From an uncultured Bacteroidales bacterium (GTDB lineage Bacteria > Bacteroidota > Bacteroidia > Bacteroidales > Paludibacteraceae): a DNA stretch of 64,000 bases. The DNA is taken from contig ONHW01000003.1 of assembly GCA_900317745.1 (NCBI GenBank), positions 62,001 through 126,000 on the forward strand, in the 5' to 3' direction. Below, piece after piece: positions 5,858 through 40,948 of the stretch. A program made the position numbers and the translations under genes. The notes under the pieces are model-generated. The model did not search any database and was not told the origin of the DNA. It saw only the letters and a program-made list of their open reading frames with translations. How positions within the stretch are numbered: position 1 is the first letter of the stretch; the number at the start of each line of letters is the position of its first letter.

Positions 5858-7011
5858 TGAAAAAGATATTGTTGGTTGGCGGAACAGGTGTCCTTAGTAG
5901 TGCTGTCGTAGCAGAAGCATTGCGCAAAGGGATGGACATTACTATCATAACGCGTGGTAGTAAAAAAGCCCCGCAGGGTGTGAATAATATCCTTTGCGAT
6001 AAGGATGACTATGAAAAGTTATCCGATTTGCTCAAAGGCAAGAAATTTGATGCTGTCATAGATTTCTTATGCTACCATGAGGAAGAATTAGTAAAGAGCT
6101 TTCAATTCTATTCCGGTTACACTAATCAATACTTTTTCATATCTTCTTGCGCCGTTTATGATACTCGCGTAGGCGGCGAATTGAACGAAGATTCGCCAAA
6201 AGTGTTGCCGATGTGGTCTTATAGCGTAGAGAAATGGGCGTCAGAACAGAGATTAGCACTATTAGCATCTAAGACAAACTGCAAATATACTATTATTCGA
6301 CCATGTGTAACATATGGTGATACGCGTATACCTTACGGGATTTACCCTCCATATGGCTATCATTGGACATTGTGTGCTCGTATATTAGAGAGTAAGCCGA
6401 TAATTACTTGGAACAAGGGAGAGAATCGATGCAATATGATGCGGGTAGAGGATTTCGCCATTGGGGTAGTTGGGTTAATTGGAAATGAAAAGGCTTATAA
6501 TGAAGCATTCAATATATGTGGTGATGAGACTCCTTCATTCAAAGAGGTTCTATCTGTTGTAGAGGAGTATTTTGGAAAGAAAGCAGTCACGATTGATTTG
6601 CCGGTTGAGTTTTATGCTGAACAGATGCCTAATAGAGCCGGAGAGTTGCGTGGGGGACGATCCATTGATGCTATCAATAGTAATGAAAAGATCAAATCCG
6701 TTGTTCCTGAGTTTATGCAAACAATATCAATCAAAGACGGGATATACCGGACGATAGATGCATATAAGACGCAGAATTACCAGCGCGGAATTGATTGGGC
6801 ATTTGATGCGGAGACTGATCGTATAATCAAGACGTGGTGCAGACGAGAAGGCATCTCTACAAAAGATATGAATCTGCGATTTGTGGATTATCTTGGGAAT
6901 GCAACGCTTTTAGATAGAATACAATATAGTAAAATCCGATATAATGACAACAAATTTAGATTATCAATATGGAAGATAATCCACAGGCTTTACAAAATGT
7001 TTAATAAATAG
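5854..7011 (+). CDS. NAD-dependent epimerase/dehydratase family protein
   Basis: Extended-SDR protein of 385 residues with an N-terminal GGTGVLS nucleotide-binding loop (residues 9-15). The catalytic region around AVYDTR and WSYSVEKWASE suggests a Y-x3-K type site (YSVEK). The later sequence (MRVEDFAIGVVGLIG, FNICGDE) is typical of sugar-nucleotide epimerases and dehydratases of the isoflavone-reductase-like branch. The substrate cannot be told from the sequence. The start overlaps the KAS III stop (ATGA). The basic C-terminal tail beyond residue 340 is unassigned. Confidence 0.8.
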   Translation: MMKKILLVGGTGVLSSAVVAEALRKGMDITIITRGSKKAPQGVNNILCDKDDYEKLSDLLKGKKFDAVIDFLCYHEEELVKSFQFYSGYTNQYFFISSCAVYDTRVGGELNEDSPKVLPMWSYSVEKWASEQRLALLASKTNCKYTIIRPCVTYGDTRIPYGIYPPYGYHWTLCARILESKPIITWNKGENRCNMMRVEDFAIGVVGLIGNEKAYNEAFNICGDETPSFKEVLSVVEEYFGKKAVTIDLPVEFYAEQMPNRAGELRGGRSIDAINSNEKIKSVVPEFMQTISIKDGIYRTIDAYKTQNYQRGIDWAFDAETDRIIKTWCRREGISTKDMNLRFVDYLGNATLLDRIQYSKIRYNDNKFRLSIWKIIHRLYKMFNK

Positions 7012-16586: not shown

Positions 16587-16617
16587 TTGCATATGTCATT
16601 TTTTTTTTATATCTTTG
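16587..16617 (+). promoter_or_regulatory. Bacteroidetes-type promoter for the Panacea operon
   Basis: TTG at 16587-16589, 20 nt spacing, TATCTTTG at 16610-16617. It includes the block CATATGTCATTTTTTTTTT shared with other promoters in the window. The ATG of the next gene is 21 bp after the -7 box. Confidence 0.75.
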
Positions 16618-35097: not shown

Positions 35098-35101
35098 AGA
35101 A

Positions 35102-35191
35102 ATGATAAAATACCACTGCGTACTCAACGGTTGCTCAGCGTGGTGGGAAGAACAGAGCGACCATAAAACTATCGGTTATGGAATACAATAG
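35102..35191 (+). CDS. possible 29-codon peptide upstream of the RiPP precursor
   Basis: ATG 35102 to TAG 35189-35191 encodes MIKYHCVLNGCSAWWEEQSD plus nine more residues. It begins 4 bp after the DUF354 stop and its end overlaps the start of the precursor gene in another frame. It may be a coupling leader, a second peptide, or chance. Confidence 0.25.
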   Translation: MIKYHCVLNGCSAWWEEQSDHKTIGYGIQ

Positions 35192-35291
35192 ACCTACGAT
35201 TGTTGCGCAGAGCACAATGCAGATGGCTGATTGCAGAAAAGGTCCGTGTGGAAGGCCTTCATGCAGTAGTAAGCCATCAGGAACACATTGA
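35178..35291 (+). CDS. Cys-rich RiPP precursor peptide (37 residues)
   Basis: ATG 35178 to TGA 35289-35291. The leader-like half is MEYNRPTIVAQSTMQMAD. The core-like half starts at Cys19 and reads as five-residue units, CRKGP, CGRPS, CSSKP, then SGTH, giving three Cys at exact spacing C-x4-C-x4-C. It lies 57 bp before a radical-SAM/SPASM gene whose N-terminus looks like a precursor-binding RRE, with a terminator-like hairpin between them. That is the usual arrangement for a ribosomally made, thioether-bridged peptide (sactipeptide/ranthipeptide type). No export gene lies next to it. Confidence 0.75.
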   Translation: MEYNRPTIVAQSTMQMADCRKGPCGRPSCSSKPSGTH

Positions 35292-35304
35292 TGTTATCGC
35301 GTGG

Positions 35305-35339
35305 AATGCGGTAGCAAGAAAAGCTACCGCATTTGTTTT
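35305..35339 (+). terminator. attenuator between RiPP precursor and maturase
   Basis: Perfect 11-bp stem AATGCGGTAGC (35305-35315) and GCTACCGCATT (35323-35333), loop AAGAAAA, then TGTTTTG. A partial terminator here would let precursor RNA exceed maturase RNA. Confidence 0.8.
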
Positions 35340-35348
35340 GAATCAATT

Positions 35349-36791
35349 ATGTTTGTACGAAAACTACCATATATTATTTATCGAGCATATCCAACGAAGG
35401 GATATCTGACAGATAATCGCAATTTTGGTTACGATACTGCTGCGAAGAGTTGCTTGAAAGTGGGAGATTTATTGATTTCTCATGAAGGCAGTATTTTCTA
35501 TTCTCAGTTGGAGGATGAGTATAGAAGTGTAGATGAGATTGCAAAAAAGTTGACAACAATTTTCACGGGTGTCAGCTATGAGGTGCTACTCGAGGATGCT
35601 ACTGTGTTTTATGCAGAGTTAGCAAGAAAGGGATTTGTTGAGTGTGTAGAGAGTGTAGGTGCGAGGAAGTCATCAAATTACTTTTCGTATGATAATTACG
35701 AGCCTTGTATTATCGATGCGGAGATCAATGCTCCGGTTGAGTATAACGTGGTGTTTGAGGGAGAGTTTAGCCTAACCCGTGTTCATGTGGATATCTCCAG
35801 TCGATGCAATGAGAACTGTGCGCATTGCTATATTCCAGTTGAATACAAACGCGGCATGATGGATGAAGATATGTTCGATAGGGTGCTCAATCAATGTGTG
35901 GATATGAAAATTATTAATATCACATTGAGTGGTGGTGAACCGATGCTGAATCCACATTTGAAATCATTTCTAGCCAAATGTAGCGAGGCTAATTTGTCCA
36001 TAAATATACTATCTAATTTGACCTGCTTGTCTGATGATCTGTTAGATGTAATTGCTTCAAATCCATTGGTTTGCGTACAGACATCAGTGTATGCTATGGA
36101 CGCGGATTTGCACGACTCGATTACACAACATAAGGGGAGTTTTCAAAAGACAATAAGTGCCATCCATGAATTACATAAACGGAACGTTCCAATGCAGATT
36201 AATTGTCCGATTATGAAGCAAAATCTTCATTGTTATCGTGAGGTGTTGGAATTCGCAAAATCGTTGAATATAGAGGCGAGTTCGGATTACACATTATTCG
36301 GATGTTATGACTCATCAGGGATAAATCTTGGTTGCCGAATAACGAATGCTGATATTGAGAATATTTTGGATGCTGATTATACGAATGCGAATGTATATAA
36401 TGAAGCTATTCAGGTCATTAATCAGAAGAAAGTAGGCGATGACGAACCAATATGTACGGTGTGTAAATCATCGTTGTGCATTTCGAATACGGGAGATGTG
36501 TATCCATGTGAGGGGTGGCAACGAATGAAATTAGGTAATCTCAATACGATGACATTAAGGCAGATCTGGGAAGATTCTCCGTTGACAAGGCATTTGAGGG
36601 AACTGAAGTATCGGGATTTCAAGGAATGTAGTACATGTCAGGAAAGAAAGTATTGTACGACATGCTTGATTATGAACGCTAATGAGAATGACGGAGGAGA
36701 CTACATGCGAGTGAATCCGTACATGTGCGAATTGGCAAGGATAAAACGTTGTGTAATAGAGGGAAAGATGGGGGAAATAGCGCGATATTGA
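35349..36791 (+). CDS. radical SAM/SPASM peptide maturase with N-terminal RRE (PqqD-like) domain
   Basis: A 480-residue protein from ATG 35349. Residues about 27-101 (VGDLLISHEGSIFYSQ through EIAKKLTTIF to ELARKGFVE) follow the PqqD/RRE winged-helix pattern that binds RiPP leaders. The radical SAM motif is C153-x3-C157-x2-C160 (SSRCNENCAHCY), followed by LSGGEPMLNP. The SPASM region has CTVCKSSLC, VYPCEGW, CSTCQERKYCTTC and a final YMCEL, enough Cys for two auxiliary clusters. It probably forms thioether links on the 37-residue peptide encoded just upstream. Confidence 0.88.
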   Translation: MFVRKLPYIIYRAYPTKGYLTDNRNFGYDTAAKSCLKVGDLLISHEGSIFYSQLEDEYRSVDEIAKKLTTIFTGVSYEVLLEDATVFYAELARKGFVECVESVGARKSSNYFSYDNYEPCIIDAEINAPVEYNVVFEGEFSLTRVHVDISSRCNENCAHCYIPVEYKRGMMDEDMFDRVLNQCVDMKIINITLSGGEPMLNPHLKSFLAKCSEANLSINILSNLTCLSDDLLDVIASNPLVCVQTSVYAMDADLHDSITQHKGSFQKTISAIHELHKRNVPMQINCPIMKQNLHCYREVLEFAKSLNIEASSDYTLFGCYDSSGINLGCRITNADIENILDADYTNANVYNEAIQVINQKKVGDDEPICTVCKSSLCISNTGDVYPCEGWQRMKLGNLNTMTLRQIWEDSPLTRHLRELKYRDFKECSTCQERKYCTTCLIMNANENDGGDYMRVNPYMCELARIKRCVIEGKMGEIARY

Positions 36792-36922: not shown

Positions 36923-36953
36923 TTGTATATGTCATTTTTTTTTTGTAATTTTG
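36923..36953 (+). promoter_or_regulatory. promoter of the five-gene defence operon
   Basis: TTG at 36923-36925, 20 nt spacing, TAATTTTG at 36946-36953, with the shared spacer TATATGTCATTTTTTTTTTG. The 36792-36922 stretch before it is AT-rich and holds no gene. Confidence 0.7.
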
Positions 36954-37009: not shown

Positions 37010-38377
37010 ATGATACAACTGAAGAAACTGCAATTGTCTAATTTTAAGTGTTTCGATGAAACGCCGAAAATTGAGTTTGGAAAGATTACACTGCTATTAG
37101 GTGCTAATAGTGCCGGTAAGAGTTCGTTGATGTACTCGATGCTGTGTGTATTTCAGTCGATACCGTCGTTGATGCGTCTATCTCTAAACAGCGACTATGT
37201 CAATTTGGGAAATTATGAAGAAGTAGTCTATGGGCATGATAAGAGTCGAGTGATGCGCATTAACTTTACGCTATCAAATGACGGTGTAGATTATACATAT
37301 AAGACAGCATGGCATTGCGATGAGCAATCTAATCAACCGATACTGGTGATGCTATCGTGTGAGTCGGATCACTACAAATATACAATTCATGAGGAATTGT
37401 ATGGTGGAAGGCACTATCTATTAGATCTTAAGTATGATTACAACAAGAGCCAGGCAGCTGCAGAAAATCATGATCAAACGCTCAAAGCGCTTCAAGATTT
37501 TGTCCTTTCCGGCAAAATTCAGTATGCAAATCCGGCAGAGTATAGTAAGCAGTTAACAGCATGGTTTTCTCCTATCGATGAACAAAATATCTTGATAGAT
37601 ATCAATGCTAGGACGGAGATGATGATAAAAAATAATGCCCATGCATCAACGGTATTCAACTTGGTATCTAATGATTCTGCGCATATTATTTCGGAGTATG
37701 TGGATAATATGAATTTCATCAGTTCGTATCGAATGCCAGCAGAACGAATGTATCCTGAGACGACAGTTGCAAACGGAAAAGTTAAGCCATCCGGCAATGG
37801 TTTTGTTGCAGAATTGCTGAAATGGGGTACGGAGGATGCACCGCGGTATAATGCTTTGGTAGAATCGTTGCGAAATCTCGGAATGTTGTATGCAGTGGAA
37901 TCGGCAAGAAGGGATGAGGGCAACTTTGTGGTAAAGGTGCAAGTGAATCAAGATGGACCTAAAGCGAACTTATATGATGTTGGATTCGGTGTGTCACAAT
38001 TGTTGCCGGTAATCGTTGGTGATTTTGAATTGGAAGATGAATCGACCCTTTTTGCAGCACAACCTGAGATTCACTTACATCCGAGCATACAAGCTAATTT
38101 AGGTGACTATTTCTCCACGCAAGTTCTATCTGCGCATAAGAACTATGTGATAGAGACTCACAGCGAGTGCTTGATAAATAGACTTCGTTTGAAGATCGTT
38201 AAAGGTGAACTTCGGATGGAAGATGTGCGTGTATACTATATGAATCAGGAGAATAAAAAATCGGTTGTTCACGAAATTCAGTTTATGAAGGATGGACGCA
38301 TTTTGGGTGCCCCAAAAGATTTCTTTGAGACGTATATGGTGGATGTGATGAATATAGCAATGGAGGCTACAAGATGA
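37010..38377 (+). CDS. AAA15/DUF3696-type ABC ATPase, defence-associated
   Basis: A 455-residue SMC/OLD-like ATPase. It has MIQLKKLQLSNFKCF at the start, Walker A GANSAGKSS (31-39), signature GFGVSQLLP (about 325), Walker B region EIHLHPS (about 350) and the H-loop ETHSE (about 383). DUF3696/AAA15 ATPases act as sensors in several phage-defence systems, paired with a nuclease or toxin (for example PARIS AriA). Here the partner gene overlaps by 4 nt and encodes a PIN-like protein. It is first in an operon that ends with Kiwa genes. Confidence 0.85.
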   Translation: MIQLKKLQLSNFKCFDETPKIEFGKITLLLGANSAGKSSLMYSMLCVFQSIPSLMRLSLNSDYVNLGNYEEVVYGHDKSRVMRINFTLSNDGVDYTYKTAWHCDEQSNQPILVMLSCESDHYKYTIHEELYGGRHYLLDLKYDYNKSQAAAENHDQTLKALQDFVLSGKIQYANPAEYSKQLTAWFSPIDEQNILIDINARTEMMIKNNAHASTVFNLVSNDSAHIISEYVDNMNFISSYRMPAERMYPETTVANGKVKPSGNGFVAELLKWGTEDAPRYNALVESLRNLGMLYAVESARRDEGNFVVKVQVNQDGPKANLYDVGFGVSQLLPVIVGDFELEDESTLFAAQPEIHLHPSIQANLGDYFSTQVLSAHKNYVIETHSECLINRLRLKIVKGELRMEDVRVYYMNQENKKSVVHEIQFMKDGRILGAPKDFFETYMVDVMNIAMEATR

Positions 38378-38859
38378 AACGGGATATATTCATAGATGCC
38401 AATATAGCAAGCAACTTTGCCAATCCTGCAGATCCGAACTATAAGGAACTGATTGCTTGGTTAAACGACAATCACGATATCCCAGATGGGCAAGAAGATG
38501 ATAGGGCGTATCTGGTGGTATCTAACAAATTGATGGGTGAATATTGCCGATCATTTCGAGATTCATTTCTTACTAATGCGATGCCGATGATCGTAAATCG
38601 ATTGACTATAGATGGGCGATTAGTAAACATCTCCAATACTGAAATTAGAAAATTTAAAACCGCAGAGTTTGTGCCACGTGTCGTACATCACATGCAATCT
38701 AATGCTGAGGATAGGGAACATATTCCTGTCGTATTGCTATCGGAGCGAAAATTTGCATTAACCAATGATGGGGATTTTGCACATGACTTGGGATTATTTC
38801 CGCGTTACGGTGCTATGGTGTCTAACCGACCAGAACAGATTCCATATCAGGAAGGGTAA
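38374..38859 (+). CDS. PIN-like protein, probable effector of the AAA15 ATPase
   Basis: A 161-residue protein. Acidic positions follow a PIN-like order: IFIDANIASNFANP (Asp8), GEYCRSFRD (Glu), EDREHIPVV, and ALTNDGDFAHDL (Asp pair near the end). PIN folds cleave RNA. The ATGA overlap with the ATPase gene implies coupled synthesis, as for sensor-effector pairs. The family is divergent and the assignment is inferred from motif order and position. Confidence 0.65.
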   Translation: MKRDIFIDANIASNFANPADPNYKELIAWLNDNHDIPDGQEDDRAYLVVSNKLMGEYCRSFRDSFLTNAMPMIVNRLTIDGRLVNISNTEIRKFKTAEFVPRVVHHMQSNAEDREHIPVVLLSERKFALTNDGDFAHDLGLFPRYGAMVSNRPEQIPYQEG

Positions 38860-38890
38860 TTGAGTGGGATGTGATAAGGTTTTAAAACGC

Positions 38891-40948
38891 ATGGAAACAA
38901 TGACTATAAATTTAGATTCGGATTTAAGGGGACGGTTGCGTAATACCAGTTTGCCAATTAGCAAAAGTATGTTCCCTGTATTTGAAGCAGTGGTTAATTC
39001 TATATTATCCATTGATGATCGTATTACAAAGAATGGTGACATATCAAAAGAAGATAGCTATATAGATGTCTTTGTGAAAAGGATTCCTCAGACATCATTG
39101 GTGGAAGGGAAGAAGCAGCCTATATTGAACGTAACAATCGAAGATAACGGTATAGGTTTTAACGAAGATAATTATCATTCGTTTCTTACGATGGATTCTC
39201 AATTTAGAGTGGATAGGGGATGTAAAGGTATCGGACGTTTGATTTGGCTAAAGGAATTTGAAAGTGCTTCTATCGAAAGTGTCTTTAGCGAGAAAGGAAA
39301 AATATTAGAGAGAAAATTCCGCTTTAATGAGAATGGAGTTGAAATAGAGGAGGAGCATGAGATCGCACAGGATTCGCGAATCATTACTAGAGTAACATTG
39401 AATACCGTACGAAAAGAATTTCAAGAAGAACTTGGAAAGAAGACGGCAAAGAGCATGGCAAAGGCCTTATTGGAGCATTGTTTATGGTTCTTTTTACGTA
39501 CTGGTGGGGCACCGCGAATTCGTATTATTGATGGCGATGATGTTGAATGTTTGGATGATTTATATGAGTATTATCTGTCAAAACAGGAATCTTCAACTTT
39601 TGAAATAAACGGAAAGGAGTTTCAAGTATTGCACGTATGGTCAGGAATACAAGAGACGGCAAGAAAAGCTTCTTATTGTGCAAATGAGCGAGTTGTGACA
39701 GAAGAGAAAATCACAGCGGTGGCAGGATTAAATGATAATCAGTTGAGATATGGCGATGAGACATTATATTATGCATGCTATGTTACATCGGATTATTTCG
39801 ACGAACATGTAACTGCTAACCGTACATCATTTGAGATACCAGAAGAACCGAAAAAGGATCAACAGGATGTATTTGAAGATACAATCTATTTCAGTACAAT
39901 ACGCGAGAAACTGCTAGAAAAGGTTCGGGAATATCTAAAACCATATCTTCGCGAGAATCTTAATGAGGGACGTAGGAAGGTTCAGCAATTCATTGAACAA
40001 AAGGCTCCCTATTATCGTCCATTGTTGACAAGTATGGAAGATGAGGAGATAACCATCAGTCCAAATTCAACAGAAAAGTCGATTGAACTGATGCTGCATG
40101 ATGCACTGGTAAAGAAAGAACACAAATTATTGGAAGAAGGACATGATATAATGATCGTTCGCGAAGGAGAAACAGAAGAAGAATATAGAGAAAGAACCAG
40201 TAAATTCTTTTCGGATGCAACATCATTAAAAGAAACTACATTGGCGCATTATGTGGTTAATCGAAAAATCTTTATTGAGATTTTAAAACGCGCAGTTAGA
40301 AGAGGCGACGATGGTAAATATGCAAAAGAAGAGGATATTCATAATATCGTTATGCCAATGCGTGTTGAAAGCGATGATTTGAAATTCCTAGAGAACAACC
40401 TATGGATTGTGGATGAAAGGTTAGCATTTCATACCTATCTTGCATCAGATAAGTATATCAAATCTATGTCTATAACGGATTCCGATTCATCACGTCGTCC
40501 GGATGTGTTGATAGAGAATTTTATATATGATAATCCGATGTTCGTCGCAACGTCAGACAAAATGCCATATACTTCACTTCGCATTGTTGAGTTTAAAAGA
40601 CCAATGCGTGATGACTATTCTAACAAAGAAGGAAAAGATCCCATTAAGCAATGTATTGATTATGTAAAAGATATTCGTAAGGGTAATCAACTGACAAAAG
40701 ATGGAAGACCATTGAAGGGTCCAAATGATATGGTCGCATATTGCTATATTATATGTGATTTGGTGGAATCAATGAAAGAATTGTGTGATTATTACCAGTT
40801 CTGGCCAACATACGATGAGTTAGGATATATAGGCTTCCATAAAACATATAAGATTTATTTCGAGGTAATATCCTATGATCAATTACTCAATGCCGCAGAA
40901 GAACGCAATTCGGCATTGTTTGAGAAGTTGGGATTACCACATAATTAA
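38891..40948 (+). CDS. GHKL-ATPase fused to a C-terminal PD-(D/E)XK-like nuclease domain
   Basis: About 685 residues from ATG 38891 (a GTG at 38864 would add nine). The N-terminus is a Hsp90/MORC-type GHKL ATPase: VFEAVVNSIL (N box), VTIEDNGIGFNE (G1) and RGCKGIGRLIWLKEFE (G2). A long helical middle includes EYLKPYLRENLNEGRRKVQ. The C-terminal 150 residues contain SRRPDVLIENFIYDNP and LRIVEFKRPMRDDYS, matching the D...E-x-K order of a PD-(D/E)XK nuclease. Such two-domain proteins are found in defence islands. It stands between the ATPase/PIN pair and Kiwa. Confidence 0.8.
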   Translation: METMTINLDSDLRGRLRNTSLPISKSMFPVFEAVVNSILSIDDRITKNGDISKEDSYIDVFVKRIPQTSLVEGKKQPILNVTIEDNGIGFNEDNYHSFLTMDSQFRVDRGCKGIGRLIWLKEFESASIESVFSEKGKILERKFRFNENGVEIEEEHEIAQDSRIITRVTLNTVRKEFQEELGKKTAKSMAKALLEHCLWFFLRTGGAPRIRIIDGDDVECLDDLYEYYLSKQESSTFEINGKEFQVLHVWSGIQETARKASYCANERVVTEEKITAVAGLNDNQLRYGDETLYYACYVTSDYFDEHVTANRTSFEIPEEPKKDQQDVFEDTIYFSTIREKLLEKVREYLKPYLRENLNEGRRKVQQFIEQKAPYYRPLLTSMEDEEITISPNSTEKSIELMLHDALVKKEHKLLEEGHDIMIVREGETEEEYRERTSKFFSDATSLKETTLAHYVVNRKIFIEILKRAVRRGDDGKYAKEEDIHNIVMPMRVESDDLKFLENNLWIVDERLAFHTYLASDKYIKSMSITDSDSSRRPDVLIENFIYDNPMFVATSDKMPYTSLRIVEFKRPMRDDYSNKEGKDPIKQCIDYVKDIRKGNQLTKDGRPLKGPNDMVAYCYIICDLVESMKELCDYYQFWPTYDELGYIGFHKTYKIYFEVISYDQLLNAAEERNSALFEKLGLPHN

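Follow-up and report, generated by a model that had tools for sequence, protein, structure and literature searches.

A two-gene cassette of a probable new RiPP family shared by Bacteroidota and plasmids of Gammaproteobacteria

Does a reading frame of only 37 codons encode the substrate of the radical SAM protein whose gene follows it, and if so, what might such a pair be for? The initial annotation of the window (the whole 64,000-nucleotide stretch of DNA analyzed here) read the two genes, with a hairpin between them, as a new RiPP system marked by a Cys pentad, with Bacteroidales as the place to look for a varying core. In our analyses, the precursor, the hairpin, and the RRE/radical SAM/SPASM maturase of that reading stood, but a Cys-pentad signature, a varying core, and a restriction to Bacteroidales found no support. 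The two genes (Table 1) almost certainly pair a genuine precursor with its maturase, in a RiPP family named by none of the libraries searched.

Table 1. Coordinates of the cassette and its parts in the window
Feature	Position	Strand	Detail or basis
Two-gene cassette	35101..36791	+	Pairwise blastn similarity across differing surroundings
RiPP precursor peptide gene	35178..35291	+	37 aa; putative leader up to about residue 18, core beginning at C19
Stem-loop, terminator/attenuator-like	35304..35334	+	Folding with shuffles; structure kept, sequence differs in other clades
Radical SAM/SPASM maturase	35349..36791	+	480 aa
N-terminal PqqD-like (RRE) region, about residues 1-100	35349..35648	+	PqqD in 11/12 members, E <= 0.1
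C-x3-C-x2-C radical SAM cluster motif (C153, C157, C160)	35805..35828	+	Invariant, 12 aligned maturases
SPASM region (C369, C377, C387, C427, C430, C436, C439, C460)	36453..36728	+	All invariant

The small uncalled frame is real and encodes MEYNRPTIVAQSTMQMADCRKGPCGRPSCSSKPSGTH, as first described. Across the 16 distinct homologous peptides aligned, MAxC and P[CS]GRP were kept in 16/16, as was the Cys that follows GRP(S), and the leader was conserved around KPx[IVL][VL]A[QK]SxxxMA; the putative border between leader and core was placed by conservation. Differences between precursors of the window clade (6 sequences, 15 pairs) favored third codon positions, with dN/dS of 0.04 to 0.46 in the 8 measurable pairs and saturated synonymous change in 7 pairs. 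Between the peptides of the E. coli and Photobacterium plasmids, 17 codons differed, all of them synonymously, with 0 amino-acid changes. Together, the alignment, the dN/dS values, and the synonymous-only plasmid differences argue that the 37-codon ORF is a selected gene whose core is conserved, across phyla, rather than varied; its codons are under purifying selection and do not evolve like noncoding DNA. A chance reading frame, to which the shortness of the ORF and its want of database matches might point (no Pfam match for the window peptide; 0 NCBIfam families, the GG-Bacteroidales precursors included, for it or for the L060 peptide), is vanishingly improbable and is refuted by the conservation across phyla, the codon-position bias, and the purifying selection. 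The core is cationic and rich in Pro and Gly, with a net charge of +3 to +5. The window peptide does have the C-x4-C-x4-C spacing, but the family as a whole does not, and the spacing was rejected as a family signature: the middle Cys is present in 7/16 peptides and is Ser in 9/16.

Some 75 nt directly 5' of the precursor (window positions 35101-35177) were conserved in L021, L022, and L023 despite frame-breaking indels between relatives, for which the stretch was rejected as a second peptide. It is noncoding, perhaps a promoter or leader RNA, and elsewhere in the genome of the window only 14-base matches to it were found. A separate short element, GTATATGTCATTTTTTTTTTGTAA, occurs at window positions 36925-36948 (exact) and 16589-16612 (3 mismatches), where none would be expected by chance; similar stretches are found in L021, L022, and L023, and the element is perhaps part of a promoter.

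The PqqD-like N terminus, the C-x3-C-x2-C motif, and the SPASM cysteines initially ascribed to the second gene product were borne out by Pfam matches and by cysteines invariant in 12/12 aligned maturases. The window maturase matched Radical_SAM at E 2.7e-20 and SPASM at 4.1e-11, and both models matched 12/12 members. PqqD was matched in the window maturase at E 0.0045, below the Pfam curated cut-off, and at a best value of 7.5e-7 among the aligned relatives. The gene probably starts at ATG 35349 and not at GTG 35301, since the extension from the latter holds a stop in a 77% relative (L002/L023); a Met stands at the position of the ATG in the relatives read. By sequence, the best solved relatives were SkfB, then PqqE, BtrN, SuiB, and CteB. 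An AF2 model built from 8 sequences (pLDDT 70.3, pTM 0.67, with residues 7-45 and 105-139 poor) had SuiB and CteB as its best fold matches, with the epimerase EpeE also among the matches; as TM was only about 0.5 and rmsd 8-15, the modeled domain arrangement is uncertain. A first model from 6 sequences was poor (pLDDT 46.4) and was set aside. Among NCBIfam matches of the window maturase, the best 25 of 63 all fell below cut-off, as was likewise the case for L058 and L063, and the plasmid maturases are annotated only as "radical SAM protein." The maturase frame of L026 is interrupted, by assembly error or inactivation, and that of the near-identical L025 is intact.

The two genes were found together at the close maturase loci examined. 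An order-wide search of 393 genomes returned 6 maturases above 700 bits, 6/6 with the precursor directly 5'. In genome_contigs, the precursor was present in 7/7 loci, among which L024 is nearly the window's own sequence (its maturase cut by the contig end) and L026 is close to L025. All 7 plasmid records had the maturase start 192-194 nt after the precursor start; these maturases were 36.5-39.5% identical, and the plasmid peptide matches taken alone (E 0.6) had looked like chance. In IMG/VR, the precursor stood beside 2/2 full-length maturases. A phylum survey of 395 genomes gave matches in the window's own genome and in G588, which belongs to another class; the precursor was found only in G588 within its order (1/123) and only in G243 within its family (1/5). 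When the 393 genomes were searched with the peptide, 33 matched at E <= 0.05 but only 6 below 1e-6; for the weak matches (27 genomes), the places read (L034-L037) held no family maturase, and the remainder were taken as chance. The next maturase match, G093 (512 bits), and G032 have other Cys precursors, of the GSYAAGCP type; this is the precursor type of the more distant sister maturases L063 and L081. The pairing count covers the close loci and leaves aside 9 lower maturase matches under 190 bits (of which L083 was read), distant plasmid matches (Macrococcoides, Thiodictyon), and a short IMG/VR match, L093. No close maturase locus examined lacked a similar Cys peptide upstream. Plasmid annotation was read for four stretches and has no entry for the precursor in any of them; the PLSDB gene table is incomplete.

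The two genes are separated by a hairpin that was initially described as a perfect 11-bp stem with a T-rich tail. The stem is real, with 11 Watson-Crick pairs plus one G-U (35304-35315 with 35323-35334), but the T-rich stretch after it is interrupted. The 57-nt gap of the window folds at -20.4 kcal/mol (z -3.78), and 0/200 shuffles were as stable. A stem-loop was present in 14/14 precursor-maturase gaps folded, with z from -2.4 to -6.8; shuffles folded as well as the real gap in 4/200 cases for L061 and in 1/200 for each of L082, L105, and L107. Stem sequences differ between clades. The plasmid copies have a T run behind the stem, an arrangement like that of an intrinsic terminator. The L088 gap also has a stem-loop, and the L092 gap (266 nt) has, unlike the other loci, a strong GC-rich hairpin together with extra sequence. 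This pattern fits an attenuation that would give more precursor than enzyme; the hairpin would likely either end much of the transcription or protect the upstream RNA, leaving the precursor in excess over its enzyme.

The pair is not a Bacteroidales-only system: its copies came from Bacteroidota of two classes, from Gammaproteobacteria (7 conjugative plasmids), and from two IMG/VR contigs. By pairwise blastn, similarity to the window spans positions 35108-36746 in L022 and 35101-36766 in L023 and then stops; the upstream neighbors of both differ from those of the window, which L021 shares. Neighbors were mostly unshared between loci, with the exceptions of the window and L021, of L025 and L026, and of one gene each between L058 and L059 and between L059 and L061. 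Within the genus, a close copy was found in 2/37 genomes, the window's own included. In the maturase tree, the Bacteroidota of two classes grouped with contigs L088 and L092 (support 1.0), apart from a clade of the gammaproteobacterial plasmid copies (1.0), the deeper branching being poorly supported (0.15-0.55). The L092 cassette has a GC content of 0.35-0.42 in a contig that is otherwise at 0.61-0.73, except for 0.53-0.56 just 5'; judging from translations, L092 appears to be Mu-like and L088 to carry three recombinases. We consider it very probable that the cassette spread across phyla by transfer, and we are considerably confident that it is a self-contained RiPP unit of two genes moving between genomes.

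On the E. coli plasmids, a gene annotated as a recombinase precedes the cassette, and past the maturase there are stretches with 53-67% identity to this recombinase. In the E. coli and Salmonella plasmid records L105 (8085-8726 and 10606-10922), L106, and L108, it stands between the recombinase gene and stretches 53-72% identical to that gene, an arrangement that suggests the manner of its insertion. No megablast match was found in a collection of 5,426 complete E. coli genomes, so the five E. coli plasmid records apparently fall outside that collection.

The initial view of a defense region without a local exporter was partly borne out: candidate defense genes recur beside relatives of the cassette, and no C39 peptidase turned up in the genome of the window, which is 95.6% complete, although 3/8 host genomes have one. 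In a scan of 29 neighbor proteins from 12 loci, picked partly by eye and leaving out L088, L092, and the plasmids, candidate defense genes lay beside 8/12 loci, and PADLOC models at E<1e-10 matched 12/29 neighbors versus 1/20 controls (Fisher p 0.007); at E<1e-5, the figures were 12/29 versus 3/20 (p 0.064). Matches include AriA/NsnB-like ATPases, a TIR protein, LmuA, AbiEi, a type II methyltransferase, and Vsr, as well as the candidate families PDC-S02 and PDC-S05. These neighbors support, but do not prove, a link to defense. Window positions 37010-40948 hold an AAA_15/DUF3696 ATPase (PADLOC NsnB, E 1.7e-54) and, behind it, two genes (161 and 694 aa) that had no PADLOC match, together a possible defense module beside the cassette. 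Directly 3' of the maturase, L058 (4248-5765; TPR and DUF2971) and L059 (5604-7400) encode proteins 58% identical to each other, the sole neighbor common to loci on the downstream side. In the neighbor comparison, no immunity, exporter, protease, or oxidase gene was common to the loci.

The precursor also occurs in a phage record. A 93,940-base record (L089, IMGVR_UViG_3300014208_000005) encodes MIYTKPKILAQSTVQMAECRPNSRPSGRPCNPPKPGGV at 6001-6117, between other genes, and a search of the whole record for a maturase gave no recognizable one, the only trace being one weak hit that covered part of the model (69 positions, E 1.4e-5) and lay in a protein about 290 aa long. Its helicase and DNA polymerase match 83 and 1,850 phage-collection records, respectively, all under 60% identity. 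The peptide and its L059 counterpart are unlike at 2 residues; the changes between the two genes, 15 synonymous against 4 nonsynonymous, argue that selection has maintained the peptide since the split, in the phage or in an unsampled prior host. The orphan is known from a single record, possibly a fragment, and a second copy was not found in the phage collection searched with two peptides or in viral helicase and precursor-pattern scans. The E. coli maturase had no match in the phage collection at E<1e-30; viral scans with the window and E. coli maturases returned nothing, those with the L092 maturase and the L089 helicase returned only themselves or their own record, and the precursor-pattern scan returned 10 stretches, of which 2 were those already known and 8 were other ORFs.

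Most likely, the cassette product would act in conflicts involving phages or other bacteria, because the core is conserved, no exporter or protease travels with the genes, candidate defense neighbors recur, and a phage record carries the precursor alone. As to the kind of conflict, more than one reading has to be weighed. RiPPs made by the RRE radical SAM/SPASM class of enzymes are often antibacterial, and the cationic Pro/Gly-rich core and the plasmid location would likewise suit a bacteriocin or secreted competition peptide, exported or processed by genes elsewhere and aimed at neighboring bacteria. Such a role is possible but falls short of probable in our estimate: by eye, there is no GG-type leader, the C39 peptidase is confined to the minority of hosts given above, the loci share no immunity or exporter gene, and the core is conserved across phyla, not varied. 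Antiphage defense, in which the modified peptide would act inside the cell and the phage orphan would be an RRE decoy or a competitor for modification, seems rather unlikely. It draws on the candidate defense genes beside the loci, with their excess over controls at the stricter threshold, and on the orphan precursor with its largely synonymous changes; against it, defense genes are common in variable regions anyway, the excess weakens at the looser threshold, and the orphan is known from one phage record with no copy in the phage collection. The maturase itself matched defense models only through generic radical SAM similarity to viperins (pVip, E 5e-16, radical SAM region only). RiPP clusters adjoining defense systems have been reported before (PMC12715929). 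More specific, and speculative, is a minimal two-gene RiPP immune system against phages, its core nearly fixed, that bacteria of different phyla would share through plasmids and genome islands and that a phage would counter with a bare precursor, either as a decoy for the maturase or to borrow the host maturase for a copy of its own. Quite improbable is a further reading, in which the peptide would give rise to a small cofactor or metallophore, much as PqqA gives rise to PQQ, its conserved core being consumed. The conservation of the core, the absence of an exporter, the RRE/SPASM maturase, and the place of PqqE among the nearest solved relatives would agree with such a role, but no protease or oxidase partner is common to the loci, and the patchy, mobile spread within the genus is unlike that of a cofactor pathway.

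As for the chemistry, by analogy with the enzyme class the N-terminal RRE would very probably bind the leader while the radical SAM/SPASM enzyme modifies the core. The targets would be, somewhat more probably than any others, C19 and the Cys that follows GRP, both invariant, joined most likely by thioether links to nearby residues; Cys thioether chemistry of this kind is, on the same analogy, the outcome we mildly favor. Another chemistry, such as carbon-carbon links, epimerization, or a change of the Arg or Pro of GRP, is a tenable though not a favored prospect. GRP varies no more than the two Cys do, and both SuiB, which forms a carbon-carbon link, and EpeE are among the fold matches; set against this, the two Cys are invariant in 16/16 peptides, and the thioether enzymes SkfB and CteB rank high too.

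What is new here is a RiPP family unnamed by the curated models searched, with a precursor missing from the four plasmid annotations read. Gut Bacteroidota and E. coli plasmids have nearly the same core, so its chemistry and function could be tested in E. coli laboratory strains. Provided that the phage link is true, modified-peptide chemistry would be joined to phage defense, and the phage-borne precursor would be a countermeasure.

No description of the cassette was found in the literature searched, which lay outside subscription papers and preprints, and the core strings CGRPSC, PSGRPC, PCGRPC, and KPSGRPC were absent from it. Bacteroidales RiPP clusters with radical SAM enzymes and precursor peptides have been described in PMC10352776, whose available text covers nine clusters, picked partly for precursors and transporters and mostly with a C39 transporter and GG leaders; that text does not mention a GRP core, the precursor sequences standing in its figures. 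No NCBIfam or Pfam model names the family. The sactipeptide maturases SkfB, AlbA, and StsB are likewise RRE-type radical SAM/SPASM enzymes next to a Cys-containing precursor, but the window maturase scored far below the cut-offs of their models (57/300 bits for SkfB, 62/625 for StsB, 59/850 for AlbA), and the cassette differs in its short leader, its conserved GRP core, and the lack of an adjoining exporter or immunity gene. With the ranthipeptide systems CteB/SCIFF and PapB it shares a fold match to CteB and a Cys precursor directly 5'; the PapB model gave 50/340 bits, and the two invariant Cys of the cassette peptide contrast with the six-Cys pattern of SCIFF precursors. SuiB, of the streptide system, is the best fold match and also combines RRE, radical SAM, and SPASM, yet makes its carbon-carbon link in a peptide that is not known to have this Cys/GRP core. 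On the PqqE model of the PQQ pathway, the window maturase scored 84/381 bits, below cut-off. Viperin-type proteins are not known to have SPASM or RRE, whereas the cassette maturase has SPASM and PqqD. The sister Bacteroidales maturases L063 and L081, about 30-33% identical, likewise have a Cys precursor 5', a hairpin after it, and a similar leader start; they differ in their unrelated cores and in lacking the NRNFGY stretch near the maturase N terminus, and the L063 precursor had no NCBIfam match. With its paired precursor, its RRE, and its motif cysteines all present, the cassette appears by sequence to belong among the RRE-dependent radical SAM RiPPs.
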